Shown here: positions 3,206-28,163 of the stretch, piece by piece | Layout: every line of letters begins with the position of its first letter | How positions within the stretch are numbered: position 1 is the stretch's first letter | Assembly: GCA_907163075.1 (NCBI GenBank) | Contig: CAJQTY010000001.1 | Location: forward strand, 2,728,001 to 2,792,000 | DNA from: an uncultured Rhodocyclaceae bacterium | GTDB taxonomy: Bacteria > Pseudomonadota > Gammaproteobacteria > Burkholderiales > Rhodocyclaceae | DNA length: 64,000 bases | Reading direction: 5' to 3' | Made by a program: the position numbers and the translations under genes | Notes under the pieces: generated by a model | Database searches by the model: none | Told to the model about the DNA's origin: nothing | The model's input: only the letters and a program-made list of their open reading frames with translations

Positions 3206-3324
3206 GCTTGCTGCCTCCGCCCAGCCGATGGCCTGCATCCATCACTGGATTGAATATGCAGGGTCCGGAACCTCCGACGCGCCCCACGTAACGAGTCCGG
3301 TACCCGCTTCGATGAACCGGATGC

Positions 3325-6300
3325 CTAGAGCGCCGCACCACGGTCACGAAAGAACGTACGGTACTCCTCCGTCAGTCCGCGGGCACCCCGGAGGTCAGCT
3401 CCGGTGCAAGGAATGCGGCGCCGTTGCTTTCCTTCCGGTGGGAAGCTGCCGGCCGCCGCGTAGCTTGGCGAAGACCAAAGCCGCATCACTCCATCGTAAC
3501 TCGCTGTCCCGAGCCAACGTCCATCCTGAGAGAACCGCAGTTCGCGGACATTTTCGCCGTGGCCCGGACCGATGTTCCAGACCTGCGCGAGTGTCGGCAC
3601 TGCAAGCACAAAGACGAGATTCGGGTGGCAGCTCACTGCCAATTGGGCAAGCGCAGGGTGGAATGCGATCGAAAATATCGACCCCGGCAACACGACACGT
3701 GAGACCTCTGCTCGTTCCGCCAGGGAGGTAAGCACAACAGTCGCGTCCTTGCCTCCTGTTGCCATCCACATTCCGCTGGCGTCTACATCCAGCGCCCGAA
3801 CCGATTCCGTATGACGTAGAAGAGGTGTCGAATCTTGGAAGTACGGCCCTGGCAGGATTTCGACCACCCCATCGGATCGGCCGATCAGAAGAGCGCCTGC
3901 AGCGGTTGAGTAAACCAACGCTCGGCAATTTACCGGGGAAAAGTCTCTCACAACACGCGTGACTGCGGTACCCGCATCGGCAAAGCTGACGCGGCCGCCG
4001 GTTGCATAGAAGAGCTCATCTGACTTACGCCCGAACGACAAGGCTTCCACCTTCGCCAGGTGCGAATCAGTGTATCGCTCGTGCGCTCGCAACTCAGAGT
4101 CCATGAGAATGATGTCGCCATGGCTAGTGCCAGCCGCGATCGCCTTGCCATCGGCGGACCAACGACATACATAAACGGTGCCCGCAGTCCGAACGGTGCG
4201 AACCACCGCCTGATTGAGCACGTCCCAGAGCGTCACACCTTCACCCTGGATACACGTGACTGCGCTTCGGCCGTTGGACGAGAAATCCAGGCTATACACA
4301 GCCCCCGACTCGCCCCAGCTAACGTCGACAAACTCGGCGTTGGAGAAGTCAGTGTGCGTCAAGTTCGTGTTACTGAAATCGCAGGAGGTCAACTTGGAAC
4401 CCGAGAACCTTGTTCCTGAGAGGTCGGCGCCTGAGAGATTTGCGCCAGCAAAGGCGATTCGCGAAAGGTCCCTATAGCGCATATCTGGTGTCATGGCGCG
4501 GATCAGCGTCGCCAAATTACCCAGGAAATACTCGGATGTGCCCGGCGGCTCGTCACGATGCTTCGCGAGAATGTCCCAGAGGAAGGCCAACACTTCGCCA
4601 TCTGATCGTCTGCTTCCCGTCGCGGTTGTCACCGGCGCTCCGGCGGCGGCATCCGAGGTCACGTGGCTGGATCGGCGCGATGCCATGTCCGCGAACATGT
4701 CGACAATCGGCCTCGCCAGTGGCGTTTCACACAGAGACTTCCGCAGAACGGACTCGTCCTCCATCGAGAATGCGAGCAAGGGCGCTGTCACCGCCAACTG
4801 CTCGCCGCCAAGATCTGGGTGGAAGTATTCGGACCATTGATACCTTTGCGGAACGCCCCGCAGGTCCACGTCCGGCCGTTCGAGCGCCAGGGATAGGTAT
4901 TCGCCTGCAAGGACCCCGAGCTGTGCGGCTGTTCGATAGGCCGCGAAGAACTCCAGAATCGACCTATGGGCCGGACGGTATTCCCCGTTGGCGCTACGGA
5001 TCAGCAAACTCTGGCCGAGCATGTCATGCTGCCACTGGTCCAGCATTGCAGACCCTGCCACTCGCTGACCGAACAGTGCGCGGAGTAGTCCTGGTATTTC
5101 CCTGTGATGAAGGGAGAGCTTGTTCGTGCGCAGCATGTCGCACGAAACTTCACACATGAAGTACAACTTGTCTGCTGGCGAAGTGAACGTTCGACCGGCG
5201 CCTGTGTCCCGCTCCATCTTTCGCCGCACGGCATAGAAGTAGACCCTGGCCAGGCTGATGGGTCTCTCGACATCCAGGGATGGAAGCGCATCGAGGATGA
5301 GGTCGATCATTAAGGGCCGTCGGGCAAGGCTTGCCAGTGCGTCTGAGGAAAGGATTCTCTCCCTGGCTTCTGCCGGAGCGGACGAATCCAGGACGGACCG
5401 GACCTGTTGCGGACTGAGCTGCTGTATCTCCAAGACCTCGAAGCTTGGGCTCGCAGTTGGCTCGGCTGGCGTCTTGAACGTTCGGACGCGACCGCCGAGG
5501 AGTTCACGCCCGCGTACCGCGTCAGGGAAGTGTTCAGTTCTCGACGTTAGCAGCACCTTTGAACCCGGCACCAGCAGCCGCGCGAGTTCCCAGAAGTGCT
5601 TCAGAACCTGTTCGGTGTCTATGCGCCCGGCCATCTCATCGAAGCCGTCGAGGATGAGCAACAACCTTCCCATCCTATTGAGCTGTTCGAACGCGGAATA
5701 GCCGGCGAGTCGAACCCGGTACGTTCGGCAGAGGACATCAGTGATGAGGGCCTCGATGCTGCCACTTCGCGGATACTCGCGCAGTGGCACGTAGAGGGGG
5801 AAGCGGCGCCTCCGCAGACCCGATGCAGCGTCTGATCGGTATCGTTGTAGGCACGTCCAAGCATACTTGAGTGCGAACCAAGTCTTTCCTGATCCGAACT
5901 CGCCTAACAGCGACAATTGGCTTACGGAAGGGTCGTCGAGCCACCGGTCGACATATCCGTCCAACGACCCATTTCGGGCATCGTATCGGCTGCGACCAAT
6001 TGGTTCTCGGCCTGAAGGGTCGTACTCGTCTTTGAGGCACGCTAGCGGCACGTACCTGCTAAGCACGCCCCGACTCTCGACCTCTCTCTCCAGCCAGCTC
6101 TTGTAGGTCGTAAAGTCCACCTCCGCGTCGATGAATTGATCGAGCGTGTAGCAGTGCAAAGGGATCGTACCGGCACCAGGGTTCGCTGAATCGACCGCAG
6201 CTTGGCTCACCCGGCGCAACGCTACCAGCCAGCCCTCACGCGCCAGCTGTTTTGCTGCGGTGGCCCTTAATTGCGCTAGCTCGACGAGGCCAGCTTCTCC

Positions 6301-7059
6301 GTCAGCGCCGACAACCACAATGGGCTCAGGCCCATGCCGGCCGGGTACTGTGATGGACCACGTGAACGCACCGTCGGCTCCCCGAGTTTCAGAATCGATA
6401 CGGTAACCGACCGCGGTGAACCAATCGCGCAACTGCTGCGCAAGAAGGTCCCCTGGGGTTCCGTCGGGTAGCCGGGCGGCGTAAGCTGCTTGGAGTCTGC
6501 GGATCTCGGTGTGTAGTCGTCTAGAGTCAGGAGCTTGCCAACCTTCGGCAAGCATCGCGGTTAGCGCGCGGTATCGCCGTATCAGCCATGCGTTGAGATC
6601 GACGGCAATCCGTTCCGGCAGATCCTCAAAGCCGTCAACGAACGCGTAGGTCACGCCGCATGATGGGTCGAGAACTTCCAGCTGAAGAAATGGATCGTCC
6701 GTTTGCTCTGCCAACACGCGGTGAAGGTAAACGAAACGCGGCTTTCCCAGTTGCGCCGCGGCCCTGAACTCGCACTGCGTTCCTTCGCCGGTGGCCTGCA
6801 AGAAGACACCTACATAAACGTCCGCCTCTTCGACCCCGTAGCACGACGTTTCTAGTACGCTTTCGGGGCGGGCACCGGCGGTGTCCTCGTAAAGCCAAGT
6901 GCGCACCCCTCGGCCGCGGAGTTCGGCGGCGATTCGCTCGCGAACTGGTCCCAGGTCGCGCATGCCGGAACTAATGAAGACATGCAGCGCATCGCCCAGC
7001 GGCACTTGCGAGACTAAAGAATCAGCGGTGTGGGGCATGGTGCAAGCACTGTCCGCCAC
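3325..7059 (-). CDS. DUF4062-NACHT-pentapeptide-WD40 NLR-like (STAND) protein
   Basis: 1244 residues. Domains in order: DUF4062 (about 25-125, starting VFISSGMRDLGPVRERIA), a TIR/SIR-like fold in other STAND proteins; a linker region (about 200-290) that may be a restriction-endonuclease-like fold; a NACHT ATPase with Walker A GEFGSGKTWF near 385 and Walker B LLLILDGFDE near 455; pentapeptide repeats (FAGANLSGADLSGTRF, about 870-910); and WD40-type repeats to the C-terminus (about 925-1210). This is a cytoplasmic sensor layout: the repeats sense, NACHT oligomerises and the N-terminus acts. The start is GTG 7059 or ATG 7038, with no clear ribosome site for either. The gene has its own promoter and is followed by a radical SAM gene. 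The trigger and effector activity are unknown. A role in phage defence is inferred from the domain class. Confidence 0.85.
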   Translation of the reverse strand: MADSACTMPHTADSLVSQVPLGDALHVFISSGMRDLGPVRERIAAELRGRGVRTWLYEDTAGARPESVLETSCYGVEEADVYVGVFLQATGEGTQCEFRAAAQLGKPRFVYLHRVLAEQTDDPFLQLEVLDPSCGVTYAFVDGFEDLPERIAVDLNAWLIRRYRALTAMLAEGWQAPDSRRLHTEIRRLQAAYAARLPDGTPGDLLAQQLRDWFTAVGYRIDSETRGADGAFTWSITVPGRHGPEPIVVVGADGEAGLVELAQLRATAAKQLAREGWLVALRRVSQAAVDSANPGAGTIPLHCYTLDQFIDAEVDFTTYKSWLEREVESRGVLSRYVPLACLKDEYDPSGREPIGRSRYDARNGSLDGYVDRWLDDPSVSQLSLLGEFGSGKTWFALKYAWTCLQRYRSDAASGLRRRRFPLYVPLREYPRSGSIEALITDVLCRTYRVRLAGYSAFEQLNRMGRLLLILDGFDEMAGRIDTEQVLKHFWELARLLVPGSKVLLTSRTEHFPDAVRGRELLGGRVRTFKTPAEPTASPSFEVLEIQQLSPQQVRSVLDSSAPAEARERILSSDALASLARRPLMIDLILDALPSLDVERPISLARVYFYAVRRKMERDTGAGRTFTSPADKLYFMCEVSCDMLRTNKLSLHHREIPGLLRALFGQRVAGSAMLDQWQHDMLGQSLLIRSANGEYRPAHRSILEFFAAYRTAAQLGVLAGEYLSLALERPDVDLRGVPQRYQWSEYFHPDLGGEQLAVTAPLLAFSMEDESVLRKSLCETPLARPIVDMFADMASRRSSHVTSDAAAGAPVTTATGSRRSDGEVLAFLWDILAKHRDEPPGTSEYFLGNLATLIRAMTPDMRYRDLSRIAFAGANLSGADLSGTRFSGSKLTSCDFSNTNLTHTDFSNAEFVDVSWGESGAVYSLDFSSNGRSAVTCIQGEGVTLWDVLNQAVVRTVRTAGTVYVCRWSADGKAIAAGTSHGDIILMDSELRAHERYTDSHLAKVEALSFGRKSDELFYATGGRVSFADAGTAVTRVVRDFSPVNCRALVYSTAAGALLIGRSDGVVEILPGPYFQDSTPLLRHTESVRALDVDASGMWMATGGKDATVVLTSLAERAEVSRVVLPGSIFSIAFHPALAQLAVSCHPNLVFVLAVPTLAQVWNIGPGHGENVRELRFSQDGRWLGTASYDGVMRLWSSPSYAAAGSFPPEGKQRRRIPCTGADLRGARGLTEEYRTFFRDRGAAL

Positions 7060-15603: not shown

Positions 15604-15635
15604 TGACATCATCGTCATTTTTGACGATGATGTCA
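15604..15635 (+). promoter_or_regulatory. Perfect 13-bp inverted repeat over the methylase start
   Basis: TGACATCATCGTC and its exact complement GACGATGATGTCA are separated by six bases (ATTTTT). The second arm contains two candidate ATG start codons (15627 and 15630), and no other ribosome site is visible. As RNA it would form a strong hairpin that hides the start; as DNA it could be an operator for self-regulation. Either would limit methylase expression. Confidence 0.6.
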
Positions 15636-16319
15636 CAAATGAGATATCCCGGTGGAAAAGGCAAATGTTTTCAGCAACTCATTAATTTGATGCCGCCGCA
15701 TTCAACCTATATAGAGTCGCATCTTGGTGGTGGAGCCGTGCTGAGAAACAAGGCGCCGGCGAATCGAAGCATCGGTATTGATATTGATCCGAGAGTGATT
15801 TCGTTGTGGAATTCCCGCTATCCGGGAGTGTGTGAGCTGATTCAAGACGATGCTCACGACTATCTTCGAAAATTGAAAATCGACGGCAATGAACTGATCT
15901 ATGCAGATCCTCCGTATATCCCTTCAACGCGCCGCAAAGCCAAGGTCTATGCTTGTGATTACTTGTTTGACGATCATGAGCGATTGCTGAACGTACTGAC
16001 GTCCATCCCTTGCATGGTAATGGTCTCTGGGTATGATAATGACCTTTACAACGACATGCTTGTCGGTTGGCGAAAAGTCTGTTTCAAGGCAAAAACACAT
16101 ACCGACGTCCGAACCGAACATGTCTGGCTGAACTTCGGTTCTCCCAAGGCACTCCATGACTTTAGCCACTGCGGCAGTAATTTCCGTGAGCGACAGACGA
16201 TCAAGCGTCGTCAGCAACGGCTGCAAAAGCGAATCAGCCAAATGGATCCTATCGAACGTAATGAGTTAGTCAATTGGCTAAATTCAAACTACGGAAACCT
16301 TCCGTTGGAGAGCATTTGA
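15627..16319 (+). CDS. DNA adenine methylase, D12 (Dam-like) class
   Basis: About 230 residues. RYPGGKGK close to the N-terminus is the SAM-binding FxGG-type motif, and DPPYIPSTRR near residue 95 is the catalytic DPPY motif; the order fits alpha-type N6-adenine methylases. Candidate starts are ATG 15627, 15630 and 15639, all inside or just after an inverted repeat. The stop overlaps the glycosylase start (TGATG), so the two genes are coupled. No cognate restriction enzyme is present, so it may mark self DNA for the neighbouring cluster or act as an orphan. The target sequence cannot be read from the protein. Confidence 0.85.
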   Translation: MMSQMRYPGGKGKCFQQLINLMPPHSTYIESHLGGGAVLRNKAPANRSIGIDIDPRVISLWNSRYPGVCELIQDDAHDYLRKLKIDGNELIYADPPYIPSTRRKAKVYACDYLFDDHERLLNVLTSIPCMVMVSGYDNDLYNDMLVGWRKVCFKAKTHTDVRTEHVWLNFGSPKALHDFSHCGSNFRERQTIKRRQQRLQKRISQMDPIERNELVNWLNSNYGNLPLESI

Positions 16320-17167
16320 TGCAGATTGGATGGATATTCAACGAATCGGATTTGTTCGACATTGTCCTCCCCGACCCGGCGGAGGAAGTTATTCCTGGTG
16401 TCTGTTGGGGTGCGATTGACGCATTTCCATCTCCAGCATACTGGAAGTATCAGGTGCTCGCACGACGGCATCAAGAAACACAAATTCAGTATCGCCTGGG
16501 TCAGTCGCTGGCGGAAGAAGTAGGAGCCTGTTTGCTAGGTGGCCACGGAATTCCCGCATCATTAGGTTTAGCTGCCTTTCAACACATCAAGACACGGGGT
16601 GCGTTCGGTGACGAACCTCCTGACGAGTCGATCTTGCTTGATTGGCTGAGTGAACCGATAAGTTGTGGCACACGCGCGATTCACTATAGGTTCGCGCGGC
16701 AGAAATCGAAATACCTGGCGTTTGCATTAAAGCGGATTCGCGCCGTTTCTCCTCCTGTGGAGTCTGGGAGACGCCTGCGAGATTGGTTAGTCGAATTACC
16801 AGGGATCGGTTACAAAACCGCCTCCTGGATCGCAAGAAATTGGTTAGATGCGGATGATGTGGCAATTCTTGATATCCATGTGCTTCGTGCTGGACAGCTA
16901 GGCGGATTTTTCAAGTTAGGCCTTAGTGTTGAGCGACATTACCGAGAAATTGAAGATCAATTCATCCTGCTGAGCCACGGAATGAACATCAAGGCATCAG
17001 AACTTGATGCGGTTATCTGGCACGAGATGATGTCCTCACCACAAGCGGTGCATCGAACGCTGAAATCGTTCGTTGTAACAGCAACCAAGCCAAGGAATAG
17101 ATTAAAAGACGGGCTTCGAACCAAGCAACGCAACACCAACGCCAACCAACTTGCCCTGCTCATTTAG
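16319..17167 (+). CDS. HhH-GPD (OGG-like) DNA glycosylase/lyase
   Basis: 282 residues. The helix-hairpin-helix is LVELPGIGYKTASWIARNW (near 158-176), with the catalytic lysine in GYKTAS, and the catalytic aspartate follows in VAILDIHVLR. Both residues mark bifunctional 8-oxoguanine-type glycosylases. The ATG overlaps the methylase stop, so they are made together. The last 66 bases overlap the end of the nitroreductase gene on the other strand. OGG-like proteins of this kind accompany QueC-like enzymes in type IV CBASS, so the substrate may be a modified base and not 8-oxoguanine. The gene is intact. Confidence 0.8.
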   Translation: MQIGWIFNESDLFDIVLPDPAEEVIPGVCWGAIDAFPSPAYWKYQVLARRHQETQIQYRLGQSLAEEVGACLLGGHGIPASLGLAAFQHIKTRGAFGDEPPDESILLDWLSEPISCGTRAIHYRFARQKSKYLAFALKRIRAVSPPVESGRRLRDWLVELPGIGYKTASWIARNWLDADDVAILDIHVLRAGQLGGFFKLGLSVERHYREIEDQFILLSHGMNIKASELDAVIWHEMMSSPQAVHRTLKSFVVTATKPRNRLKDGLRTKQRNTNANQLALLI

Positions 17168-17779
17168 TTCGCTTGCCCAAGGTTCCCCCGTAATCCCTAA
17201 CGGACAGAAATTTAGGCGCAGTGACTCCGCAACCAAGGCCATATGACCAATCAAAATACCAGCATCGCGCCAAACAAGACTCGCGGCGTAGTCATACTTG
17301 CTGGCAGTTTTACCCGGTTCGGCAACAAACAATAAGGTCGTCCCCAGTTGTGGGTCAAGAACCTCACGGACTTTTCGACAGAGATCACGAAGTAGTGAAC
17401 TAGCCTGATCAATTTGCGCCAATCCGTGGCTCTCTGGCACATACCGTGACCAAACGCTTCGCTCATTCTCGATCAGAATGTGTATCGGGTGGATTGCTCC
17501 TGCCGATGGCGTTGGCCGCTGGGTAATTGGAAATCCCAGGCAATCGGTGCCCGAGGTTGTTATACGGCAGGTAAGCCATAGAAAATACGCGAGTTGGTTT
17601 GAGGTCAGAGTTCCGAATGATCTTTGACTTCTTCGGGACGTTACAACTTCGTGAAAGCGGGGTAGATTCAGATCAAAGGGAACCGCCAGTAGTTCGACGA
17701 TATGCGCGTCCCATTCCACGGGTTGCCATACTGAAAAATCAACGCGGGGAGATGGATTACCGAGATCGATCCAGGTCAT
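17102..17779 (-). CDS. SagB/ThcOx-type nitroreductase-fold oxidoreductase
   Basis: About 225 residues from ATG 17779 (a longer frame opens at 17842). SRRSQRSFGTLTSNQLAYFL and RPTPSAGAIHPIHILIENE are typical of the SagB-like branch of FMN-dependent nitroreductases; VWRDAGILIGHMALVAESL is the later FMN-side helix. SagB enzymes oxidise azolines in peptide natural products, but no azoline-forming partner is present. The start lies inside the end of the QueC-like gene, so the two are coupled. It could oxidise or reduce a deazaguanine or its protein adduct; that is inference. Confidence 0.75.
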   Translation of the reverse strand: MTWIDLGNPSPRVDFSVWQPVEWDAHIVELLAVPFDLNLPRFHEVVTSRRSQRSFGTLTSNQLAYFLWLTCRITTSGTDCLGFPITQRPTPSAGAIHPIHILIENERSVWSRYVPESHGLAQIDQASSLLRDLCRKVREVLDPQLGTTLLFVAEPGKTASKYDYAASLVWRDAGILIGHMALVAESLRLNFCPLGITGEPWASELNEQGKLVGVGVALLGSKPVF

Positions 17780-18362
17780 AGCCAAGCTCGTGGAAAACTT
17801 CAAAATACTTGTTGCACCCACGGCAGTGGCCGCATGCAACATTTGCTTTGTGGCAACTATGAGCCCAAGCCAAGCAGTCGCTCGAAATGCCGGAACGGAG
17901 GACTAACTCGGTTGTTGTCAGATCCATCGCGGGTGCGTGGACCTGTATCCTACCCTCCTGGCAGAACATCAGGGCGGACAGAGAATCAACAAATTCCTGG
18001 GTACCGTCGCGATGGCTTGAATCGGACCTAACTGTTCCAATCCAAAGCTCGGTAATGCCAAGCGAAATTGCGCGCATCGCAACCAGTGTGACCAGCAGTT
18101 GATTTCTGTAGGGCCACCAATCCGAAGCGGGCGCGCAAGTATCAGCCTCGGCTCCAGCCATATCCCCTGAACCTAAAGTGCGGCAATCGATCCGAAGAAC
18201 TTGATGAGGAAGGTCAAGGCGCTTACAGATGGCCGTTGCCGCTGCAATCTCTCCTTCAGCCGCCAGTTGCCCATAGTCCACAGTGAAGGCAAGGTCAGGA
18301 TGTTTCCACCACGCAAGCGCAAGTGAATCCATTCCCCCAGACAATAGCAGCGCAGATTTCAT
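17757..18362 (-). CDS. QueC-like 7-cyano-7-deazaguanine synthase family protein
   Basis: 201 residues. The N-terminal PP-loop is LLLSGGMDSLALAWW (SGGxDS, ATP binding). The C-terminus has CHKANVACGHCRGC, the C-x7-C-x2-C-x2-C zinc site of QueC. It is slightly shorter than housekeeping QueC (about 220-230). No QueD, QueE or QueF lies nearby, so it is not part of a queuosine operon. QueC-like enzymes also serve type IV CBASS and Qat, where, as I recall recent work, they attach a 7-deazaguanine to a partner protein's N-terminus. The start overlaps the upstream fusion gene by 4 bp (ATGA). Confidence 0.85.
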   Translation of the reverse strand: MKSALLLSGGMDSLALAWWKHPDLAFTVDYGQLAAEGEIAAATAICKRLDLPHQVLRIDCRTLGSGDMAGAEADTCAPASDWWPYRNQLLVTLVAMRAISLGITELWIGTVRSDSSHRDGTQEFVDSLSALMFCQEGRIQVHAPAMDLTTTELVLRSGISSDCLAWAHSCHKANVACGHCRGCNKYFEVFHELGYDLDRSR

Positions 18363-19567
18363 TGCTCGGCGGCCGTCCAGAGAGTCTGGTAGATGGCAGT
18401 GACGTAGTCTTCGTAAAGCATACAGCCGGAACCGAGCATCATTTTCTTATCTTCATCTGATTCGTTTTCGGAGTAAAAGATTACCGGCTTGCCAACGGCG
18501 CGCGCATACCCGATTTCATAAACCGTGCCGGGGTCAAGCCCATCACCGATTGCGAATACAAGATCACAATCGCGAATGGCCTTTAGGTCCAGCTCAACCA
18601 CATCATTGGCCGAGCCGCGACCGACATCATGGAAGGGCGAAAACACGGCAAGTCCCATCTCACGCAAATTCGTCCGTGCCTGTTCCAGCAACCATAGCTC
18701 ACCCAACGTGAAAAAAGGGCCAGCAAGATACACCGTCGGTCTAAACCCATCAAGATAGCGCCTTGACGGTTGAATGGTCCGAGAACAGAACTCGTTTAAG
18801 CGCCGCTCTGTCGGGAAGCCTCGGTTTTCGCAGTAGTAAGCGGTCGCTTTCGACGCCAGCATTGCTGACTCGGCGGCGGGTAGGCATTTCGTTATCCAAT
18901 TGAAAGCAAAATTGGCTACATAGTTGTCACCAGACCCCAACTTCCAGACACGTTCGGTTCGGAATGCGGGTATCTGCGAAAACGCACCCCGATCCAGAAC
19001 AAGAGCGCCACGTGCCCCCATCTTAACAACCACTACTTCGGCATTAGACTTCTCTGAAATCTCCTGCGCGACCAAGTGCAGATCATCATCTATTCTTCCA
19101 GTCAGCACTTTTGCCTCGTGGTTATTCAATACGATGGCCAAATGTTCAGAACGCGATCCATTCTCGTGAAAATTCTTGGGGGCGGTGACACTCTGAGGGT
19201 CATAGACAGCAAAAGCTGCATGAACGATCGCGTCGCTATCAATCATTCCGAAACGAACAACCCCTTCCTCACAGATTTCGAGAGGCGGGAGCGAACCCGA
19301 CGGACTACTGATTTTCGGCCTAGCCAAACCGTGATCATAGTGGAAGCCCGTACATTCTTTAATATCTTCCGCGAGTAGTGCGAACCCCTCAAGAGCCGCT
19401 CGTTCTTCGATGACCTGTTTTCCCAACGGGTCGAGGTGTGCATGGAGCGTTGCATGTCCTCCCATTTGCGCGATGGCAGACGCAGCACGTCCGGCGGAAC
19501 CGTAGACCTCGCACCAGTTTGGATGCATGCATATTTCACGGTAGACACCACCAACGATATGAAGCAT
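18359..19567 (-). CDS. PfkB-family kinase fused to nucleoside 2-deoxyribosyltransferase
   Basis: 402 residues. Residues about 1-265 are a PfkB/ribokinase-like domain: GGVYREI at the start, NNHEAKVLTG in the middle, and KLGSGDNYVANFAFNW in place of the usual GAGD anion hole, keeping the base aspartate. Residues about 280-400 are a nucleoside deoxyribosyltransferase: VYLAGPFF, VFSPFHDVGRG, CDLVFAIGDG and GTVYEIGYARAVGKPV with the catalytic glutamate. Together they could phosphorylate a nucleoside and swap or remove its base, so they would fit supply of a modified base or nucleotide to the QueC-like protein. The gene starts 21 bp after the small MSGTSGGS protein. Confidence 0.85.
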   Translation of the reverse strand: MLHIVGGVYREICMHPNWCEVYGSAGRAASAIAQMGGHATLHAHLDPLGKQVIEERAALEGFALLAEDIKECTGFHYDHGLARPKISSPSGSLPPLEICEEGVVRFGMIDSDAIVHAAFAVYDPQSVTAPKNFHENGSRSEHLAIVLNNHEAKVLTGRIDDDLHLVAQEISEKSNAEVVVVKMGARGALVLDRGAFSQIPAFRTERVWKLGSGDNYVANFAFNWITKCLPAAESAMLASKATAYYCENRGFPTERRLNEFCSRTIQPSRRYLDGFRPTVYLAGPFFTLGELWLLEQARTNLREMGLAVFSPFHDVGRGSANDVVELDLKAIRDCDLVFAIGDGLDPGTVYEIGYARAVGKPVIFYSENESDEDKKMMLGSGCMLYEDYVTAIYQTLWTAAEQ

Positions 19568-19588
19568 GTCAATCTCCTATTTCTACAA

Positions 19589-19912
19589 CTACTTGGCAGC
19601 AACCCGAATACGAACTTGACCTCCATTTACGCTTAGAACGGTCGCGCAGTATTGAGTACCCCCAAGGAGACATTCACGCAACCTCTGAACCTGTGGCGCA
19701 GCAATTCCTCCGGCAATTTTTCCGTCATGCACCGCTGCAACGATAGTTGTCGATCCGGATTGTGTGATAACCACTTCAAGCAAACTCCCCTCAAGCAGGT
19801 TATCTACAACCTCATCCTTCGGCGAGTTGAGTTGTGTTTCGAACGAGAGCGCATCACACGAATCTGAAGATTCAAATCCATTGTTAAAACTACCACCACT
19901 TGTTCCTGACAT
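19589..19912 (-). CDS. Small protein with MSGTSGGS N-terminus, unknown
   Basis: 107 residues. The N-terminal 30 are Ser/Gly/Asn-rich and look unfolded (MSGTSGGSFNNGF). The rest (about 32-107) is predicted to be a compact beta-rich domain ending VLSVNGGQVRIRVAAK. GGGAGA lies 8 bases before the ATG, so the start is good. It is the first gene of the QueC-like operon. Met followed by Ser is normally trimmed, leaving a free Ser-Gly-Thr-Ser end. QatB proteins, partners of another QueC-like enzyme, also begin with a GTS-type sequence as I remember them, so this may be the protein that is modified. No known domain was recognised. Confidence 0.65.
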   Translation of the reverse strand: MSGTSGGSFNNGFESSDSCDALSFETQLNSPKDEVVDNLLEGSLLEVVITQSGSTTIVAAVHDGKIAGGIAAPQVQRLRECLLGGTQYCATVLSVNGGQVRIRVAAK

Positions 19913-19934
19913 ATCGTTCTCCCATTAGGCGTTA

Positions 19935-19986
19935 TTGAAATAGTAACGTTTCAAATCCAATAGCTCCCGCTTCGATTTGCAAATCG
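19935..19986 (-). promoter_or_regulatory. Two palindromes upstream of the QueC-like operon
   Basis: TTGAAA-N8-TTTCAA (19935-19954) and the perfect 14-bp palindrome CGATTTGCAAATCG (19973-19986) lie 23 to 74 bp before the first start codon. AT-rich sequence with TACAAT follows further upstream on the minus strand (about 19998-20003). This fits an operator region, but no regulator gene is linked and no clear -35 box was found. Confidence 0.4.
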
Positions 19987-20247
19987 CATAAATATTGTAC
20001 GACTTTATCATCCTTGTAAGCGTAGTGCCTTTGCATCTAGACGCTCACGTTGATTTGTAAGCCTCGACAGGTTTGGCGTTAAGGTCATGAGGGAGTATTT
20101 CGCCTAACCTCAGATTTCCTGATCCCGACGGGATTTTTGCGAGCTGAACCGGAAAAGCAATGGCACTTTATCTGACTGAACGTGACGATTGCCAAGGTAA
20201 GATTGGATCGTCGATCCAGCGCGATCATGCACGACGAGTCAGAGCAC

Positions 20248-20943: not shown

Positions 20944-21160
20944 TGCCGACGCCGAACCAGGTCTGGCTGGTGGTCGAAGCGATCGACATGCGCGCCGGCA
21001 TCGACGGCCTCTCGCAGCGGGTCCAGACCACTCTCGGCCGCACGCCGTGCGATGGCAGCGCCTACGCCTTCCGCAACCGCCGCCAGAATCGACTCAAGCT
21101 GCTCATCTGGGATGGCACCGGCGTCTGGGTGCGACGGAGCCTTACAGATCAACTGCACTC
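20940..21160 (+). pseudogene. IS66 TnpB, truncated
   Basis: The frame gives VWLVVEAIDMRAGIDGLS and LKLLIWDGTGVWV, the TnpB (IS66 Orf2) signature. It loses similarity after about residue 70 and runs into the reversed end of the zinc-ribbon gene. The transposase TnpC and the right end are missing, so a deletion or a later rearrangement joined this IS to the Tn7-like module. Confidence 0.75.
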
Positions 21161-22729
21161 GTACCTTTTCAGGTAATACTTAACAGCAGAAACAGATAGT
21201 CCGTCATTTGCCATACGTCCGGGAAACAGCTTCACCGAATTCTTGCCTGACCTACTCTCGTCAGCCGCGTCAGACAGGAAGCGGTCGACGGGCGCAGCTA
21301 TTTTCACCCAGTCATTATCGATCTGCAGTCTGACTATGCCATCCGAAATATCCAAGTGTCTGCGGTCCATGGAAAGAACTTTCTCAAGTGGGACGCCATA
21401 TAACACCGACAGCAGTTTTGCCACCATGGCTAGACGCGCCTTCTTGGTCGAGGCCGATCTGATTGCCGACACCAAACGGCCGACCATATCTGCAATCGCG
21501 TTCACGGATGGCTCTTTGCTAGCACTCTTGTTTGGAATCGCCAGGCTGTGCCCCGTAATTTCCTTCACGAATTTAACCCAAGGGAAAAGTGATGCACGAT
21601 GGCCCGGCTTTGACTTCAGGAATGCTTTGACATGATCGCTCGTCAGATCAGCAATTTTGGCGACTTCAGAGAAATTCAGGAGAGCTAGCGCGGATCGGAG
21701 ATAGAGTCGTCGGGTGCGTGCGCTCAGCGTTTCTTTCTGCGCCAAAAAATCAACGGCATACTTTCTTAGCGACTTTTCCCATGGCTTCCCCTTGGCCAGC
21801 AGCAGCGCACTCTCGATCCTTCGAATATCCGACGATTCAGCACGTTCCTGCATTGACTCGGTAAAAAAACCGCGTTCTCTCAAAAACATCCCGAATAAAC
21901 CAGAACGCCTGAATTCTTCGGTGGTAAGCAGTGATGGAATAGTCGAAAGATCTATCGAACGACTGTCGGTGTGAAACTGTTCCACGCGATCAAGGATGAC
22001 TAAAATTCTTGGCAGTGATCCGAGCACCTGGTTCACCGAGTTCCTGGCGATTACCCACTCAACAAACGCATTCAGCAGCGTGTTCGTATCCGAATAGAAC
22101 AAAAGCAAAGCCAGTTGTTCGGCTTTATGCCGAAAGGAACGAATCAATCCGCAGCGCAAACAAGGAGCGCTCCCTGCTCCGCCGAGAGAAACTCCGCAGT
22201 CTGGACAGGGGTGAATAGCATCTGGCGCTGCGGCACACCGTTTACAAAGAGCTTTGCCGTCCTGTGAAAGAGCAAATCGCTCACGGTGTTTGCCACAGAT
22301 ACAGCAGGTCGCACAGGTTAGTTTGCGCCGGCATGCATCGCAAATCTGTTCCTCCGTTACGCCGACAATCCGAGATAGACGTGACGACAACGCCCCGCAA
22401 TGGGGGCACGCTTTCTTCTCCCGAAAGTACGGGGCACAACTGGGGCAAACCGGTTTTCCCTTGAAAATAAGCCCAGCAGATTTCATTGGGCGTTCACAGC
22501 GCAGACAAACACGCGCAGCTCTACGGCAGGTTGGGCATATTGGCTCAGGATCCTGCGCCAATGCACGGACCGGTCCGGCACACTGAACGCAGGTTCGATG
22601 CTTGAAGAGGCGTTGATAGCAGGTTTGGCACAAAGGTGTACCAAGGTGGACTTTGTGAGCCTTTGCGATTCCTCTGCCGCACTCTCCACACTGACGCTGG
22701 ACCCCGTTTGACGGTTTCGTCAAGGTCAT
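21149..22729 (-). CDS. Zinc-ribbon-rich transposition protein (TniE-like)
   Basis: 526 residues. The first about 190 hold at least six CxxC pairs (CGECGRG, CQTC, CVQC, CPTC, CLRC, CPSC, CPHCG, CDAC, CPDCG, CLRCG), an array of zinc ribbons that would grip DNA or RNA; the remainder is alpha-helical and resembles a recombinase-like core-binding domain without a visible catalytic tyrosine. The gene is last in the tns-like operon and overlaps TniQ by 4 bp, the place of tniE in comM-targeting elements, where it helps choose the target site. The C-terminus ends at the join with the IS66 remnant, so a few residues may be lost. Confidence 0.65.
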   Translation of the reverse strand: MTLTKPSNGVQRQCGECGRGIAKAHKVHLGTPLCQTCYQRLFKHRTCVQCAGPVRALAQDPEPICPTCRRAARVCLRCERPMKSAGLIFKGKPVCPSCAPYFREKKACPHCGALSSRLSRIVGVTEEQICDACRRKLTCATCCICGKHRERFALSQDGKALCKRCAAAPDAIHPCPDCGVSLGGAGSAPCLRCGLIRSFRHKAEQLALLLFYSDTNTLLNAFVEWVIARNSVNQVLGSLPRILVILDRVEQFHTDSRSIDLSTIPSLLTTEEFRRSGLFGMFLRERGFFTESMQERAESSDIRRIESALLLAKGKPWEKSLRKYAVDFLAQKETLSARTRRLYLRSALALLNFSEVAKIADLTSDHVKAFLKSKPGHRASLFPWVKFVKEITGHSLAIPNKSASKEPSVNAIADMVGRLVSAIRSASTKKARLAMVAKLLSVLYGVPLEKVLSMDRRHLDISDGIVRLQIDNDWVKIAAPVDRFLSDAADESRSGKNSVKLFPGRMANDGLSVSAVKYYLKRYECS

Positions 22730-23838
22730 CGGTCCGCCCCGTTAAGCACCCCCGCCTTTCTGATGAGCAGTCCTGCTCTTGCCTCCCTGTAGGCACCCTT
22801 GGTCTCGTAGTCATCTCGAAGACGTCGAAAATTGACTTTTAACCGGCGGCGCCGAATGTTCACCGGCCCATGCGAATAGGGAAGTCGATCAATGGCTGTC
22901 TTGACCCAGCAGGGCCAAGGTCCAAATTCCTGTGCAAGGTAGTGCTGGGTCAGATCGGACATTGCGGCCCACTGAACCCATGCATCAGGCCAGCCAAGGA
23001 GCCATCGACCGACTTCTCCCATCACCGCCGCACGTTCGGATGTTCGCAACAGTGCCCAGGTCTTGTTTTTCTTCGCAGGAATTGCAACCAATGCACTTGA
23101 TTTGCGTGCTGCCAAACGACACATCCGATGCACGCCGTCGAGAAAATCCATTGGTCCAATATCCTCGACGAACGCTCCTCCGATGCCAGTCAGTGTGTGG
23201 GTATGTAGCGCTTCCTCCGCATCGACGAGTGTGCCTGACAATGCAAACAGCACGGCGAGTTGCAAGCGCAAGGCAGGGTCTTCAGCGCTTGTGCCCTCGC
23301 GAGTGATCAGGGATGCCCCACATTTGTGGCATTCAGCATTGGTTAGGGACTGCTTACGATGTGGCGTGAATGGAGCATTGCAGCTCGGGCATGAATCCCG
23401 AAGCAAACTGCCATGAATTGGACAGGCCACCATGAACTCGAGCCGCCAAAGCCGACGCAAAAAATGTGGTTTCGCGGCCAAGCATGCCGAACAATACTGT
23501 TGTCCAAAACGACGGCGTACCCGGTGATAGACGCCCACTGGCAGAATACCTCTCTGACACCCCTGTATCCAATCTTTGAAACCAGTGGCTTTCACCACGT
23601 CGCGTAACGTCGTACGTTCCAATGCATCGAATCGGATACCGGTGACGCGCGAAACCTGATGAAGCAGGGCATCCGGCGCCGTGCGGTCGATATCACGCGT
23701 CCAGAACTGCAACGTTGGCCACAACAAAACGCAAAGCTCGTGGCCTGATGCGCTGTGATTGTGCGCAAGGCGCAAGAGTAGGGACGATAGCGTTTCGCCT
23801 GGTTGGGGAGAAGGCACGTGCGCTACCAACGTTGTCAC
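22726..23838 (-). CDS. TniQ/TnsD-type target-site protein
   Basis: 370 residues. It starts PSPQPGETLSSLLLRLA, the TniQ family N-terminus. Two zinc-binding groups follow: YCSACLAAKPHFLRRLW, then ACPIHGSLLRDSCPSC with CHKCGASL. TniQ-type proteins recruit the TnsC-like ATPase to the attachment site. The gene overlaps its neighbours by 4 bp on both sides. With the adjacent zinc-ribbon protein it probably recognises comM. Confidence 0.8.
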   Translation of the reverse strand: MTTLVAHVPSPQPGETLSSLLLRLAHNHSASGHELCVLLWPTLQFWTRDIDRTAPDALLHQVSRVTGIRFDALERTTLRDVVKATGFKDWIQGCQRGILPVGVYHRVRRRFGQQYCSACLAAKPHFLRRLWRLEFMVACPIHGSLLRDSCPSCNAPFTPHRKQSLTNAECHKCGASLITREGTSAEDPALRLQLAVLFALSGTLVDAEEALHTHTLTGIGGAFVEDIGPMDFLDGVHRMCRLAARKSSALVAIPAKKNKTWALLRTSERAAVMGEVGRWLLGWPDAWVQWAAMSDLTQHYLAQEFGPWPCWVKTAIDRLPYSHGPVNIRRRRLKVNFRRLRDDYETKGAYREARAGLLIRKAGVLNGADR

Positions 23839-24713
23839 GCGGCAACTTCCCGGCTTCGGAGTTTAGCGACAACGCAATCGACAATGTCCCTGGTTATTTT
23901 TTCCTTGCCGTCCTTGATTGCTGCTACGGCCGATTCTTTGATGATGCGAGTTATGCTTCCAATGGTTCCTTGTCCTCCCAGAATTATGGGTATGGCGATT
24001 TCTTTGTCGTTTGCAATGTTAGAGCGCTCCGCAAGCGGTATTGTCAATTCGATGCTTGCCAGAAGACTTAGGGTCTCCGTATTCTTTCCCCACTTCGGTA
24101 GCGACAATTTTTCGAACCGGGTGACAAACTGGGAATCAGTAGCGAGAGCAACAACGATGTTATTCGTCCCTGCCGCCACAAATGACACGCGTAACACATT
24201 TATCAAGCTTTTCAATGAGGCGAGGAATTGCCGCTGGTTTGCAGCCGACCCGTTGAGCATGTTATGAAACTCGTCAGCCAAGAGCAGCCGAATACCCAAC
24301 TCACTAACGCGGTCAATGATCTTGGCGAGCAACCGTTCGGGTGCGGCATCCTCCCGATGCGCAACTAACAGCGCTTTTAGTATTTGGCTATAGAGCCGTC
24401 CTTCATCAGGAGCTGACGGCGTCTCGAATTTCAAAACGGCTACATGCGACTCGTCGCTCTCACTCCCGCGCAGGGGATGCTGTTTGATGCATTGTTGAAG
24501 GAGCATCGTCTTCCCGTTATTAGGATCACCGACAATCGCTAGACACGGCATACGTAGGTTACGTGGATACTCAATTAGTCTGGTGAATTCCTCCAAAATA
24601 GCCGTGGCAGCGGTGTAGCCTATCCACCTATCCTGCTCGATAAACTCAATACGGTCTTCAGGCGTCCACAGGACAGCAGTCAGGGCCTCCCCCAAGAGGT
24701 GATCAAATTTCAT
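23835..24713 (-). CDS. TnsC/TniB-type AAA+ ATPase
   Basis: 292 residues. Walker A is VGDPNNGKTMLLQQ near 60 and Walker B is LLLADEFHNML near 140, with the DEFH box usual in TniB. It bridges the target-recognition proteins and the transposase and controls activation. The start overlaps the tnsB-like stop (ATGA). Intact. Confidence 0.85.
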   Translation of the reverse strand: MKFDHLLGEALTAVLWTPEDRIEFIEQDRWIGYTAATAILEEFTRLIEYPRNLRMPCLAIVGDPNNGKTMLLQQCIKQHPLRGSESDESHVAVLKFETPSAPDEGRLYSQILKALLVAHREDAAPERLLAKIIDRVSELGIRLLLADEFHNMLNGSAANQRQFLASLKSLINVLRVSFVAAGTNNIVVALATDSQFVTRFEKLSLPKWGKNTETLSLLASIELTIPLAERSNIANDKEIAIPIILGGQGTIGSITRIIKESAVAAIKDGKEKITRDIVDCVVAKLRSREVAA

Positions 24714-26722
24714 ATGTCAATATCCTTGAATGCTGTCGCAGGACTACTGAAGAGATCGTCGTCGGTATCTGACGCTGCGTTATCCGCGGCAGACGTGTTA
24801 GCCTTTTTCGTTGGAGTAGCGGCGCTATGGTTTGAACCTGGGGCGGCGTTCGAGGGGTTTTTCGCTGCAGACTTTTTGTTTGCCGGTTTTGGTTTACTCT
24901 TCGCTTTTCTAGCGGCCTGGGTCTGTTCGATCTCGTACGTCTCGCGCGCCTTGCTTCGCTGTACATAGCCTTTGGTTGCTGCTTCGTCGACGTGAAGCAA
25001 GCCTTCCTTAGTCATCGCTCCGCGATACTCATCGTATTCTGACCAACTGATATCCGGCCACGTCGTGTCGCGTACCGGGATTTCGAAGTGTTGATTAACC
25101 TCTGGATCCCAGAACCAGATGCGTCGAATGCTTCGCGGGTCATAGTGAAAGAGAAATTTTCTCTTCTTTGTCGGATCCGCTGGATCAGGTGCTCCGATCC
25201 AGCGATTGAGAACCTCGTGGTAATACTTGCGTGTTCCGATTTCGACTCCATACGGATGAATCGCACGCCGCTCAAACGGAAGAAAATCGAGTCGCATTTT
25301 TTCTGGATTTAGCGGTATTGGGGGTAAGCCGACACCCGGGTTGTTGGCATCTCCGAGCAAACCTTGCTCCCATTTGCGAAGTGGCGTCGTATTGAGAGAG
25401 GAATGCCGATTGACGTGATAACTATTGACGATCCAATCGACGATCTCCAATTCCAGTGCCGCAAGCGTATAAACGGACTTTTTAGAGGAATCGTAGTCAG
25501 GGCTGATATCAGGCGCCCGGTGGGTGGTCCCGCGTTTCTTGTGTAATTGCTTATTGACATTCCCGACCATGGACTCGATATAGGCACCGTACCGTGGTTT
25601 TTTAAATGGGCGCAGTTGAAGATCGATGTTGTGCTCTTCGCACGCGCGCCGGAGTAACGCCCCCTTGAATTCATTGGCGTTGTCCGAGAATACTTTTCGA
25701 TACTTGCCAAAGACAGGCCATCGGCCGGGCAGACCCAGTTTGGACAACAAGTCGCGTTTTGGCATCATTCCCATATAGAGGCACACCCCGGCTCCGAACG
25801 CGGAAGGACTCATCAGGCTTAGGAAATAGCCGACGATCATTCGCGAGAACGAATCGATTGCCAGAGTAAGCCATGGTCGCTTCTCGATTGGCTGGCGTGT
25901 CTGAACGTCCACCACTTTCATGTCCAACAGGACGTGGTCGATCTGCACAGATTCCAGTGGAAACGTTCCCTCCGGGAAACTTCCTGGCGTAGCCTCAAAA
26001 CGATGCTGTGCTAATTCCTTGTTACCTCGTTCAGACATCCTCCGCTTCAGCGGAATATCAACGATGCGGTTGCGAATGGTGTTGGAGTGAGGTCGACTGA
26101 TCCCTTTTTTATCGCAACTGTCATGGATTCTCTGTATCACTGTTGCGGGAGTGTCGGCTTGCGGATCGAGGTATAGCTCCAAATCTTCGTCAATGATCGC
26201 TTCTTGCTCGGCATTTAGTAACCTTGTTCCTCGCTTCCGGCCACGCGTTCCTTTTACGAGTCCAGACATGTGCCCTGAATTTCTATAACTGGCCATCCAT
26301 CGGTATAGCGTACTGGCTTGCATTGCCTTTTCCTTTGCAACCAGCACCACATCAGCGCGTGTGCGCCTAGGGGTTTCGAGGAGAGGTCTGATGATCGCGT
26401 GGCGTACTTTTGCTTCATTCCAGTCCGCATCGCTTATATCGTTGATGTTACGCCTGGTTGATCTTTGCGCACTGGATGTGGTTTCTCCTTCCACCGCCTG
26501 GTTCGCCGTTTCCGAGACGGCCGTGACCGATGCTTCAGAAACATGCTTTAACTCAGTTGGATGAACCCGCTCGGTCTCGCCACTATCAACGTACTGAATC
26601 ACAACGCTATCGAGCGACAATAGGCGACGGACCTTGCATGCCTTCCCAAGATAGGAGACATAGGCGCCTTGAGTTATCTCGAAGTATCCTCCCCGTGGCT
26701 GAACTTGGTTGGCGTCAGACAT
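24710..26722 (-). CDS. TnsB/TniA-type DDE transposase
   Basis: 670 residues. The N-terminal half has HTH DNA-binding segments (MQASTLYRWMASYRNSG). The DDE residues are in SVQIDHVLLDMKVVD near 260, FSDNANEFKG near 340 and YGAYIESMVGNVNK near 380. A Mu-type beta-barrel follows, and the last 50 residues are Lys/Ala-rich and probably disordered, likely the TnsC contact. It joins the transposon 3' ends to comM. The gene overlaps the TnsA-like gene by 8 bp. Confidence 0.9.
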   Translation of the reverse strand: MSDANQVQPRGGYFEITQGAYVSYLGKACKVRRLLSLDSVVIQYVDSGETERVHPTELKHVSEASVTAVSETANQAVEGETTSSAQRSTRRNINDISDADWNEAKVRHAIIRPLLETPRRTRADVVLVAKEKAMQASTLYRWMASYRNSGHMSGLVKGTRGRKRGTRLLNAEQEAIIDEDLELYLDPQADTPATVIQRIHDSCDKKGISRPHSNTIRNRIVDIPLKRRMSERGNKELAQHRFEATPGSFPEGTFPLESVQIDHVLLDMKVVDVQTRQPIEKRPWLTLAIDSFSRMIVGYFLSLMSPSAFGAGVCLYMGMMPKRDLLSKLGLPGRWPVFGKYRKVFSDNANEFKGALLRRACEEHNIDLQLRPFKKPRYGAYIESMVGNVNKQLHKKRGTTHRAPDISPDYDSSKKSVYTLAALELEIVDWIVNSYHVNRHSSLNTTPLRKWEQGLLGDANNPGVGLPPIPLNPEKMRLDFLPFERRAIHPYGVEIGTRKYYHEVLNRWIGAPDPADPTKKRKFLFHYDPRSIRRIWFWDPEVNQHFEIPVRDTTWPDISWSEYDEYRGAMTKEGLLHVDEAATKGYVQRSKARETYEIEQTQAARKAKSKPKPANKKSAAKNPSNAAPGSNHSAATPTKKANTSAADNAASDTDDDLFSSPATAFKDIDI

Positions 26723-27401
26723 TCAGGAGGCTCCAGATTGGCGACGCCATAGTGAGAGGCTTGTGTATATCGATTCTAATTTTTCCGTCGATGACAAGCT
26801 TCCACAAAATGCCGACCGCCTCAAGGCGGCGATCAGGATCGGAAAAGCTTGCTGCCAGCAATTTCGCGGGGGTGCTGATCTTGAGTTCATTCATTACGCG
26901 CACCAGGGTCTCACCGATGCAATCGTGATCGACGTAATCAATGAAGCCTCGTAGGAATTTGAACTGTTTCAGACGGGGGGCGCGGATTATTCGTTCGGTT
27001 GCGATACGAAATCGCCAACCGCGTTGCCGACACAAGAGCGCAGCACGTTGAAACCCCGGACGGAGTTCACCCCACTTTTTCCGAAGATCTGCGCGTGGTT
27101 TGATCTCATAGAGCACAGGGGAGAATATTCGATTATGCTTGTCAGGTTTGAATCGGCACAGAAAATCGGGCGTATAGCGGTTATGTTTGCCTTCCTTGAA
27201 TTTCAACCGAAGCGGTTGAGCGCCAACATAGCTCAGTTTTCGTGCAAAATCCGCGGCCTCGAGGAAGTCGCGTTCCATTGGGCCTTCGTAAGGAACAAGT
27301 CCAATGCCCGCCATGCTAACGTAACCGGTAATAAATCGTTGATTGGAGATGACGTTGCGAACACCGTTACGGCTAGTCGCGTCTATAACTGTAAAAGTCA
27401 T
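26715..27401 (-). CDS. TnsA-type endonuclease (TniC-like)
   Basis: 228 residues. YTPDFLCRF and LYEIKPRADLRKKW give the catalytic aspartate and the E-x-K pair of the TnsA restriction-like fold. It cuts the 5' strands so the element moves by cut and paste instead of replication. First gene of the operon, starting about 100 bp inside the transposon end, so its promoter must lie among the end repeats. Confidence 0.85.
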   Translation of the reverse strand: MTFTVIDATSRNGVRNVISNQRFITGYVSMAGIGLVPYEGPMERDFLEAADFARKLSYVGAQPLRLKFKEGKHNRYTPDFLCRFKPDKHNRIFSPVLYEIKPRADLRKKWGELRPGFQRAALLCRQRGWRFRIATERIIRAPRLKQFKFLRGFIDYVDHDCIGETLVRVMNELKISTPAKLLAASFSDPDRRLEAVGILWKLVIDGKIRIDIHKPLTMASPIWSLLNV

Positions 27402-27405
27402 ACTC

Positions 27406-27487
27406 AGTCCGCCTTATTAATGTTTTAGTCCGATAATAAGATGTATAGATTATTCAGAAATATGCCATATTTCGGGCACTTAGTCCG
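27406..27487. repeat. Transposon right-end repeats (putative TnsB sites)
   Basis: AGTCCG occurs at 27406, 27427 and 27482, each followed by an A/T-rich run; the last two share TTAGTCCGAT. Spaced repeats of this kind at the element border fit TnsB-binding sites. The comM reading frame resumes at about 27507. Confidence 0.6.
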
Positions 27488-27506
27488 ATTTTTAAATGGA
27501 AGTCTC

Positions 27507-28163
27507 AGCGGCAGTGTGCCGCGCCCGGGCGAGATTTCGCTCGCTCACCAGGGCGTTTTGTTCCTGGACGAACTGCCCGAATTCGACCGGCGCGTGCTCG
27601 AAGCGCTGCGCGAGCCGCTCGAAAGCGGCCGCATCCACATCTCGCGCGCGGCGCGGCAAGCCGATTTTCCGGCGCAGTTTCAGCTCATCGCGGCGATGAA
27701 CCCCTGTCCCTGCGGCTTTCTCGGCGCGACCAACGGCAAATGCCGGTGCACTCCCGACCAGGTGGCGCGCTACCGCGGCAAGCTCTCCGGCCCGCTGCTC
27801 GACCGCATCGATTTGCAGATCGAAGTCCCGTCGCTCCCGGCCGAAGCACTGCAACAGGCCGCCGATGGCGAGTCGTCGGCCACCGTGCGTGCCCGCGTGG
27901 CGGTGGCGCGCGAGCGCCAGCAGGAGCGCCAGGGCAAGCCGAACGCGCGTCTGGCGGGCAAGGAAATCGACCGCTTCTGCCCGCCCGACGCGGCCGGCGC
28001 CGCGCTGCTCAAACAGGCGCTGAGCCGCCTCAACCTCTCGGCCCGCGCTTACCACCGCGTGCTCCGGGTTGCCCGCAGCATCGCCGATCTGGCCGGCAGC
28101 GCGGCCATTGCCTCACAACACATCGCCGAAGCCGTGCAGTACCGCCGCTTCGCCAAGGACTGA
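27507..28163 (+). pseudogene. comM: comM 3' fragment (Mg-chelatase-like ATPase YifB/ComM)
   Basis: The frame resumes at SGSVPRPGEISLAHQGVLFL and runs 218 codons to TGA 28163. It keeps the Walker B segment GVLFLDELPEF, the FQLIAAMNPCPCGFLG sensor region and the Mg-chelatase C-terminal domain. The full protein has about 500 residues; the Walker A half must lie left of the island, outside the window. ComM is a hexameric helicase that promotes branch migration during natural transformation. The open frame reaches back into the transposon end (to 27441), so a short hybrid could be made, but it would lack ATP binding. Confidence 0.9.

Follow-up and report, generated by a model that had tools for sequence, protein, structure and literature searches.

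QueC converts 7-carboxy-7-deazaguanine (CDG) into the nitrile preQ0 in two ATP-dependent steps (PMC13279940), and relatives of this enzyme are reported to modify proteins. In the type IV form of the cyclic-oligonucleotide-based antiphage signalling system (CBASS) a QueC-type enzyme modifies a partner protein at an N-terminal MGGS motif (PMC13279940; PMC11996544), and the same modification has been proposed at an MGTS motif in Qat, whose reaction is described as unsolved; mutation of G2 showed that both motifs are essential for defence (PMC13279940). Cap9, which in type IV CBASS joins CDG to the N-terminus of a protein, recognises the deazaguanine by means of a stacking Tyr and of an Asp that reads the N1/N2 edge, and QatC is without both residues (PMC13279940). 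A further group, Cluster 4 in the partition of PF06508 by Libby et al. 2026 (PMC13329287), is found mainly in Proteobacteria, carries the motif CH(x)5CxxCxGCxK and has a PfkB-NDT neighbour in about 89% of cases; these authors propose a function in purine salvage. Here we analyse a six-gene cassette with a QueC-like enzyme of the Cluster 4 type, in a stretch of 64,000 nucleotides (hereafter the window) from an uncultured Rhodocyclaceae bacterium (GCA_907163075.1, contig CAJQTY010000001.1, positions 2,728,001 to 2,792,000; all coordinates below are those of the window unless a locus is named). We read the cassette as most likely a third system of QueC-type protein capping, with a possible further azole step: its core pair of genes is already in print, its meaning is not.

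Gene content and co-occurrence

The six genes form two converging groups, four on the minus strand and two on the plus strand, all present in the window as open reading frames (ORFs). In order of the minus strand they encode a small protein (19589-19912; 107 residues, N-terminus MSGTSGGS, with a predicted disordered tail of about residues 1-20 followed by a HIRAN-like beta domain); a fusion of a PfkB kinase with a nucleoside 2-deoxyribosyltransferase, PfkB-NDT (18359-19567; 402 residues; PF00294, 8.5e-10, and PF05014, 4.6e-18); the QueC-like PP-loop enzyme (17757-18362; 201 residues; PF06508, 1.5e-22); and a SagB-like FMN dehydrogenase (17102-17779; 225 residues; PF00881, 2.8e-05; TIGR03605 SagB, 4.8e-15, under the curated cut-off). 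The plus strand carries a D12-class adenine methyltransferase (15630-16319; 229 residues; PF02086, 1.9e-11) and an OGG-like HhH glycosylase (16274-17167; PF22175, 6.2e-13), in which translation more likely begins at the ATG at 16319. The start of the QueC-like gene overlaps the end of PfkB-NDT by 4 nt, that of SagB overlaps the end of the QueC-like gene by 23 nt, and the 3' ends of SagB and OGG share 66 nt. The tight packing and the gene identities given in a preliminary description of this DNA are confirmed. A canonical QueC (251.8 bits) with an adjoining QueE-type gene is encoded in the 5.2-Mb host genome away from the cassette.

The short QueC-like protein, its zinc motif and the PfkB-NDT neighbour are those of Cluster 4, the same family as here. 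The likeness to type IV CBASS lies in a short QueC-like ligase, a base-reading Asp kept in both, and a flexible small-residue N-terminus on the partner (MGGS there, MSG/MGG here), whereas the HIRAN-like acceptor, the cassette's own PfkB-NDT, the SagB partner and, mostly, Ser/Thr instead of Gly set the two apart; among the six proteins, Pfam and PADLOC find neither a CD-NTase nor Cap10 (TGT-like). OGG-like proteins may also be ancillary to type IV CBASS, which a check did not confirm. Qat likewise combines a QueC-family enzyme with a partner whose N-terminal tail is disordered, the MGTS of Qat being essential, but QatC has about 400 residues, with extensions and with Thr-Thr replacing Tyr/Asp, and QatB is helical, unlike the predicted beta fold of the small protein; QatA and QatD gave no PADLOC match among the six proteins. 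PADLOC matched these to a QueC model and to methylase-type models, including PD-Lambda-5_B, and to no CD-NTase or Qat component, the neighbours beyond the six being partly scanned. As far as the six proteins show, the preliminary view of a single travelling system distinct from CBASS and Qat thus stands on Pfam, PADLOC and co-occurrence. The remark made there that no named system with this set was known applies to the whole set: neither this gene set nor any QueC plus SagB system is named in the literature searched, which mostly leaves out subscription journals and bioRxiv. It does not apply to the QueC-like/PfkB-NDT pair, which Libby et al. 2026 (PMC13329287) describe as Cluster 4; neither the small protein nor SagB nor OGG comes up in connection with this cluster in the Results and discussion of that paper.

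A search of 84,980 GTDB species, represented by a single genome apiece, with a PfkB-NDT profile gave at least 333 relatives, of which we kept the best 80, a set that leans towards the window's own kind and in which one locus (L075) is cut by a contig end. Around these 80 relatives the small protein is present at every locus, the QueC-like gene at 79, OGG at 76, SagB at 75 and the adenine methylase at 41. OGG is therefore a usual partner and the methylase an accessory (76/80 vs 41/80); of the two-armed system first suggested, the OGG partner is borne out, the methylase is not core, and the system is probably not two-armed. In plasmid records all 24 QueC-like matches have an adjoining PfkB-NDT match, and the 13 small-protein matches all fall within these 24 records; PfkB-NDT matched 79 plasmid records altogether, the 55 outside the QueC-like set being more distant matches.

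A second sampling was seeded by the small protein alone, to avoid PfkB-NDT as the starting point. The small protein was found in 7/395 genomes of the phylum of locus L087, in 3/369 of the window's class, and in 6/390 and 14/400 of two orders of Bacteroidota; without the centres of these samples (G000, G001, G002) the numbers are respectively 6, 2, 5 and 13. In these 26 genomes PfkB-NDT is always present and the QueC-like gene adjoins in 24, a PurA-type gene being found in the other two; one of the loci is interrupted by other genes (L177) and two are frame-broken (L190, L191). To judge from record titles, cassettes occur in proteobacteria, Bacteroidota, Verrucomicrobiota, Myxococcota, cyanobacteria and haloarchaea. 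Since the arrangement recurs across phyla it is not due to chance: the cassette is real, widespread, uncommon and scattered, and the six genes, or most of them, almost certainly form one conserved co-travelling system. Co-occurrence was the check proposed at the outset, and with the genes travelling together and the canonical QueC and QueE of the host lying elsewhere, the idea of a system survives it.

Some rows are doubtful. The small gene of L022 is split over two frames, yet was counted as Ser2 in the first tree described below, and split genes occur also in L061 (PfkB-NDT, OGG), L069 (QueC) and L190 (QueC). L045 and L053 have a second QueC-like copy upstream, and it is after this copy that their SagB gene lies; in L093 only the QueC-like gene is visible, at the contig edge. 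On plasmid pB of Rhizobium etli (L129) a divergent PfkB-NDT (32% identical) lies close to an OGG-like gene and to a gene of QueC type that bears the annotation of a succinoglycan regulator; the small protein had no match there.

The small protein, the QueC-like enzyme and the donor base

By an automatic start rule 87 of 97 small proteins begin with M-[ST]-G, and 91 of 97 do so after frame reading; for other ORFs from cassette loci the figure is 12 of 1233. Within the tail residues 2 and 3 are nearly invariant, while length and Ser content vary. Among loci with QueC, no MSG start was found in L125, two small proteins starting MSNG and MAGI are present in L176, and the broken locus L177 is a further exception. 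By sequence the small protein gave nothing usable in Pfam, NCBIfam or the PDB (weak, CsrA-like noise), and no match to Pfam HIRAN at E up to 1; a fold search predicts a HIRAN-like beta fold preceded by a disordered tail. With respect to HLTF or HamB of Hachiman it differs in standing alone and in its conserved tail, and DNA binding is putative. The tail recalls, by analogy, the N-terminal acceptors of type IV CBASS (MGGS) and Qat (MGTS), and we propose that the small protein is the acceptor of a QueC-type modification.

The QueC-like protein contains CHKANVACGHCRGCNK, and with it the SGGxDS loop and the CH(x)5CxxCxGCxK zinc motif of Cluster 4; the printed motif YGQ(x)6E reads YGQ(x)5E here. 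The SGGxDS loop, R86, D119 and the four Cys are kept in 107-111 of 111 relatives. As an example, D119, which corresponds to the base-reading Asp of QueC and Cap9, is found in 110 of 111 rows, the remaining row being a gap, while the position of the stacking Tyr of Cap9 is occupied by His in 105. In place of the YPDC motif of canonical QueC there is H-x-D-G, with Gly at the position of its Cys in 109/111 rows, and the TIGR00364 score is 69 bits against a cut-off of 150; profile matches in the PDB are to QueC (2pg3, 3bl5) and Cap9 (9nto). Because the Asp is kept and the Tyr and Cys positions are changed, the enzyme probably still reads a guanine-like edge, but the base that it binds may differ from CDG. 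PfkB-NDT also appears intact, Asp214 and Glu351, which we take to be catalytic, being present in 112/112 relatives.

The hosts bear on the identity of the donor. Canonical QueC is missing from 13 of 50 hosts; among these 13, QueE-type matches occur in four (G001, G002, G003, G006), none in seven, and the matches in G426 and G441 are weak and perhaps to other radical-SAM genes. We provisionally reject a requirement for host CDG, as nine of the 50 hosts seem to be without a CDG route, with the qualification that five of the nine are metagenome-assembled genomes and that the two QueE models matched just 7 and 10 of 14 control genomes. The absence of the route from these hosts and the cassette's own PfkB-NDT are in keeping with a donor base other than CDG. 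PF01242 was matched in 13 of 18 genomes examined and TGT in 14 of 16. As a separate observation, G001, G002, G003 and G006 have QueD- and QueE-type matches and no canonical QueC, and may make CDG without its canonical use. Overall we consider it quite likely that the QueC-like enzyme modifies the N-terminus of the small protein, and the earlier suggestion of a QueC-type protein modification aimed at that protein is likely to be right in so far as sequence can tell.

SagB, residue 2 and the proposed cap

The SagB-like protein scores 55.5 bits with TIGR03605, under the curated cut-off of 78.4. Single-sequence searches were weak in comparison with those of a 25-row profile, whose best PDB matches are the azoline oxidases CyaGox (1.4e-16), BmdC (1.9e-12) and McbC (8.6e-4); the putative nitroreductase 3eo7 (3.4e-12) ranks among them. 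What we take to be the Lys-Tyr motif of SagB retains its Tyr in 91/91 rows, while the Lys is not conserved. The kinship with SagB, McbC and BmdC shows in the best profile matches and in this Tyr, and the differences are a short single-domain form, the variable Lys, the sub-threshold score and the fact that no YcaO was noticed, whether in the scanned proteins of the window or in the flanks, for which the 25 commonest Pfam families are listed. The OGG-like protein has an HhH domain, its best PDB match is 3fhf, and a Lys and an Asp of catalytic type, a role that we assume, are found in 96/96 relatives.

In a 99-row tree (without the truncated L075 and L099 and near-duplicates) position 2 is Ser or Thr in each of the 82 SagB-bearing rows, and in 10 of the 17 SagB-less rows, the other seven having a different residue (Fisher p = 1.3e-6, ignoring kinship). 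In a thinned set with more Bacteroidota, from which L176, L177 and L125 were dropped or in which they are doubtful, the corresponding values are 64/64 for SagB-bearing loci, and 13 with Ser/Thr and seven without for SagB-less loci. The loci with Gly2 or Cys2 (L009, L121 and L122 from haloarchaea, L087, L091, L119, L186) are all without a SagB match. Residue 2 requires a minimum of four changes on the tree, and four also within the SagB-less rows alone; as the SagB-less subtree amounts to 24.4 of 69.6 units, a rough figure for this coincidence is 0.35 to the fourth power, or about 0.015. Two points weigh on the other side: an independent-pairs test of residue 2 against SagB was not significant (with low power), and Ser2 is found also in SagB-less loci, so SagB is not the sole reason for Ser2. 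The preliminary description had SagB oxidise a free base; the profile matches to azoline oxidases and the Ser/Thr2 make it more likely that SagB forms an azole on the first residue.

These results can be combined in the following scheme. Removal of Met would expose Ser2 (or Thr2) on the flexible tail of the small protein; the QueC-like enzyme would adenylate the carboxylate of a guanine-like base, prepared or released by PfkB-NDT, and join the base to the N-terminal amine, as Cap9 does. In most loci the same enzyme would then re-activate the amide by a second adenylation, or proceed through a nitrile, the Ser/Thr side chain closing to an oxazoline, and the SagB-like flavoenzyme would oxidise this to an oxazole, giving a base-oxazole cap. 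A second adenylation would explain both the Ser/Thr2 and why no YcaO was noticed, and TruD is cited as a precedent for an AMP-forming azoline cyclase. The HIRAN domain may bring the cap to DNA 3' ends or to stalled phage replication DNA, and the OGG-like protein, with a fold that accommodates guanine-like bases, may read or remove the cap and perhaps cut DNA; for a glycosylase and methylase that discriminate phage DNA, as envisaged initially, we found no support. The observed gene set, its co-travel, the conserved N-terminus, the predicted folds, the catalytic residues and the pattern of residue 2 and SagB are what the scheme starts from, and from them we infer every chemical step, the base, the target of HIRAN, the role of OGG and the defence function. 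The reading as a mobile, probably antiviral cassette built around the attachment of a nucleobase to the N-terminus of a small HIRAN-domain protein seems to us evenly poised between right and wrong; the oxazole step is a tentative proposal, and about as tentative is the complete picture of a modular cap that would be a novel type of protein modification in immunity, that is a nucleobase-oxazole on a HIRAN-domain sensor with its own base-supplying enzyme and a sister form using PurA.

Three other explanations deserve weighing against this capping scheme. Plain Cap9-type deazaguanylation would stop at the amide, and the substrates of SagB and OGG would be DNA, nucleotides or a different protein. 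The retained guanine-edge Asp and the His at the stacking position agree with it, and the SagB-less Gly2 variants do resemble the CBASS and Qat acceptors; nevertheless it accounts neither for Ser/Thr2 in every SagB-bearing tree row nor for a SagB profile nearest to azoline makers, some hosts have neither QueC nor QueE, and we hold it to be rather doubtful. Purine or nucleobase salvage, in which a free nucleoside or base would be the substrate of both PfkB-NDT and the QueC-like enzyme and the rest are bystanders, is the suggestion of Libby et al. 2026 (PMC13329287) and draws on two enzymes of nucleotide-handling families with intact catalytic residues, and on a VUT-family gene with a queuosine-salvage annotation that adjoins the cassette in two near-identical Rhodobacterales plasmids. 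It is unlikely in our view: it explains neither the HIRAN-like protein with a conserved N-terminus that heads the operon nor the partnership with SagB and OGG, nor does it account for the scattered occurrence or for the location on plasmids and in prophages.

A heterocyclisation like that of ribosomally synthesised and post-translationally modified peptides, with SagB and a further cyclase acting on Ser/Thr of the tail in the manner of microcin B17 and QueC working separately, is very improbable: the absence of YcaO from the proteins and flank families named above, the restriction of near-invariance to residues 2 and 3 in tails of varying length and Ser content, and the loss of the MSG start in three loci without QueC all speak against it, notwithstanding the SagB family, the Gly/Ser-rich tails and McbC among the profile matches. 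Capping would, if true, make this a third QueC-type protein-capping system in immunity after CBASS and Qat, provide the orphan enzymes of Cluster 4 with a substrate that can be tested, and link azole chemistry to immunity. The 107-residue acceptor is well suited to mass spectrometry, and the Ser2/Gly2 variants, the SagB-less forms and the swap of PurA for QueC are natural probes within the cassette.

Variant cassettes, mobility and neighbouring genes

In three Bacteroidota loci without QueC, PfkB-NDT is followed by a PurA-type (adenylosuccinate synthetase) gene (L086:10170-11372, L179:4657-5841, L192:8500-9774; PF00709, E about 1e-40 or better). Their small proteins start with MSKRKD, MSKRNP and MKGKPD respectively, the MSG/MGG motif being gone in all three, and a PurA-type capping variant with a different N-terminus is possible. 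In loci without SagB several kinds of gene can come directly after QueC: one for a dGTPase or HD-type phosphohydrolase in L010, L178, L182 and L183, one for an Mrr-type nuclease in L011 and L126, and in L087 and L091 one for an AAA protein, with a DUF4435 gene next; L055 and L094 have none of these. A protein of 180-280 residues, without Pfam match, takes this place in L117 (11091-11639), L119 (11058-11618) and L120 (6888-7730), where SagB is missing. Near the cassette in general, dGTPase or HD-type genes, called by record annotation or by Pfam HD / HD_assoc, are seen in L005, L010, L087, L124, L126, L178, L182, L183 and L192.

The cassette is found also on plasmids and in virus-type contigs. 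Two of the latter (L094, L095) have a three-gene core without SagB or OGG and a CI-type repressor just downstream, and L094 also carries a P2-type GPA replication gene; phage records gave only eight weak matches, all to QueC-like phage genes. In the flanks of 77 loci (149 ORFs) the PADLOC matches listed (25 of 360 models) include 7 to AriA-type ATPases, 5 to AbiLi, 4 to dGTPase and 4 to GajA/Old. Around canonical QueC in 19 stretches from the same hosts (133 of 140 ORFs used, 47 models, QueC matches retained in 8 members) no non-QueC model exceeded two matches. Defence-type matches are more numerous in the flanks than in this control, although flanks and control differ in outward reach and the comparison is rough. 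From the mobile or prophage context and the defence-type neighbours, as indirect signs, we infer that the cassette is probably an antiviral defence system.

In the window a Tn7-like gene block lies beside the cassette, on the minus strand: a zinc-ribbon protein (21149-22729), TniQ (22726-23838; Pfam 4e-22), TniB/TnsC (23835-24713; TniB, 7.1e-64), a TnsB-like protein (24710-26722; Mu-transpos_C, 1.1e-06) and a TnsA-like protein (26715-27401; TnsA-like N, 3.2e-12). It is followed on the plus strand by the 3' part of a Mg-chelatase gene, which we take to be of comM type (27441-28163; PF01078 from profile position 93, PF13335) and which is a likely insertion target. A search for transposon ends gave no convincing inverted pair flanking the cassette, and in the flanks of the other loci 2/149 ORFs match Mg_chelatase and 2/149 TniQ. 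The VUT-family genes annotated with queuosine salvage on the two Rhodobacterales plasmids are at L007:8504-9043 and L128:8468-9043. Elsewhere in the window, on the minus strand, a 1244-residue protein (3325-7059) with DUF4062, an inactive restriction-type NA-iREase1, NACHT, pentapeptide and WD40 repeats resembles a STAND-type sensor, and a B12-binding radical SAM protein (1784-3238) lies near the left end.

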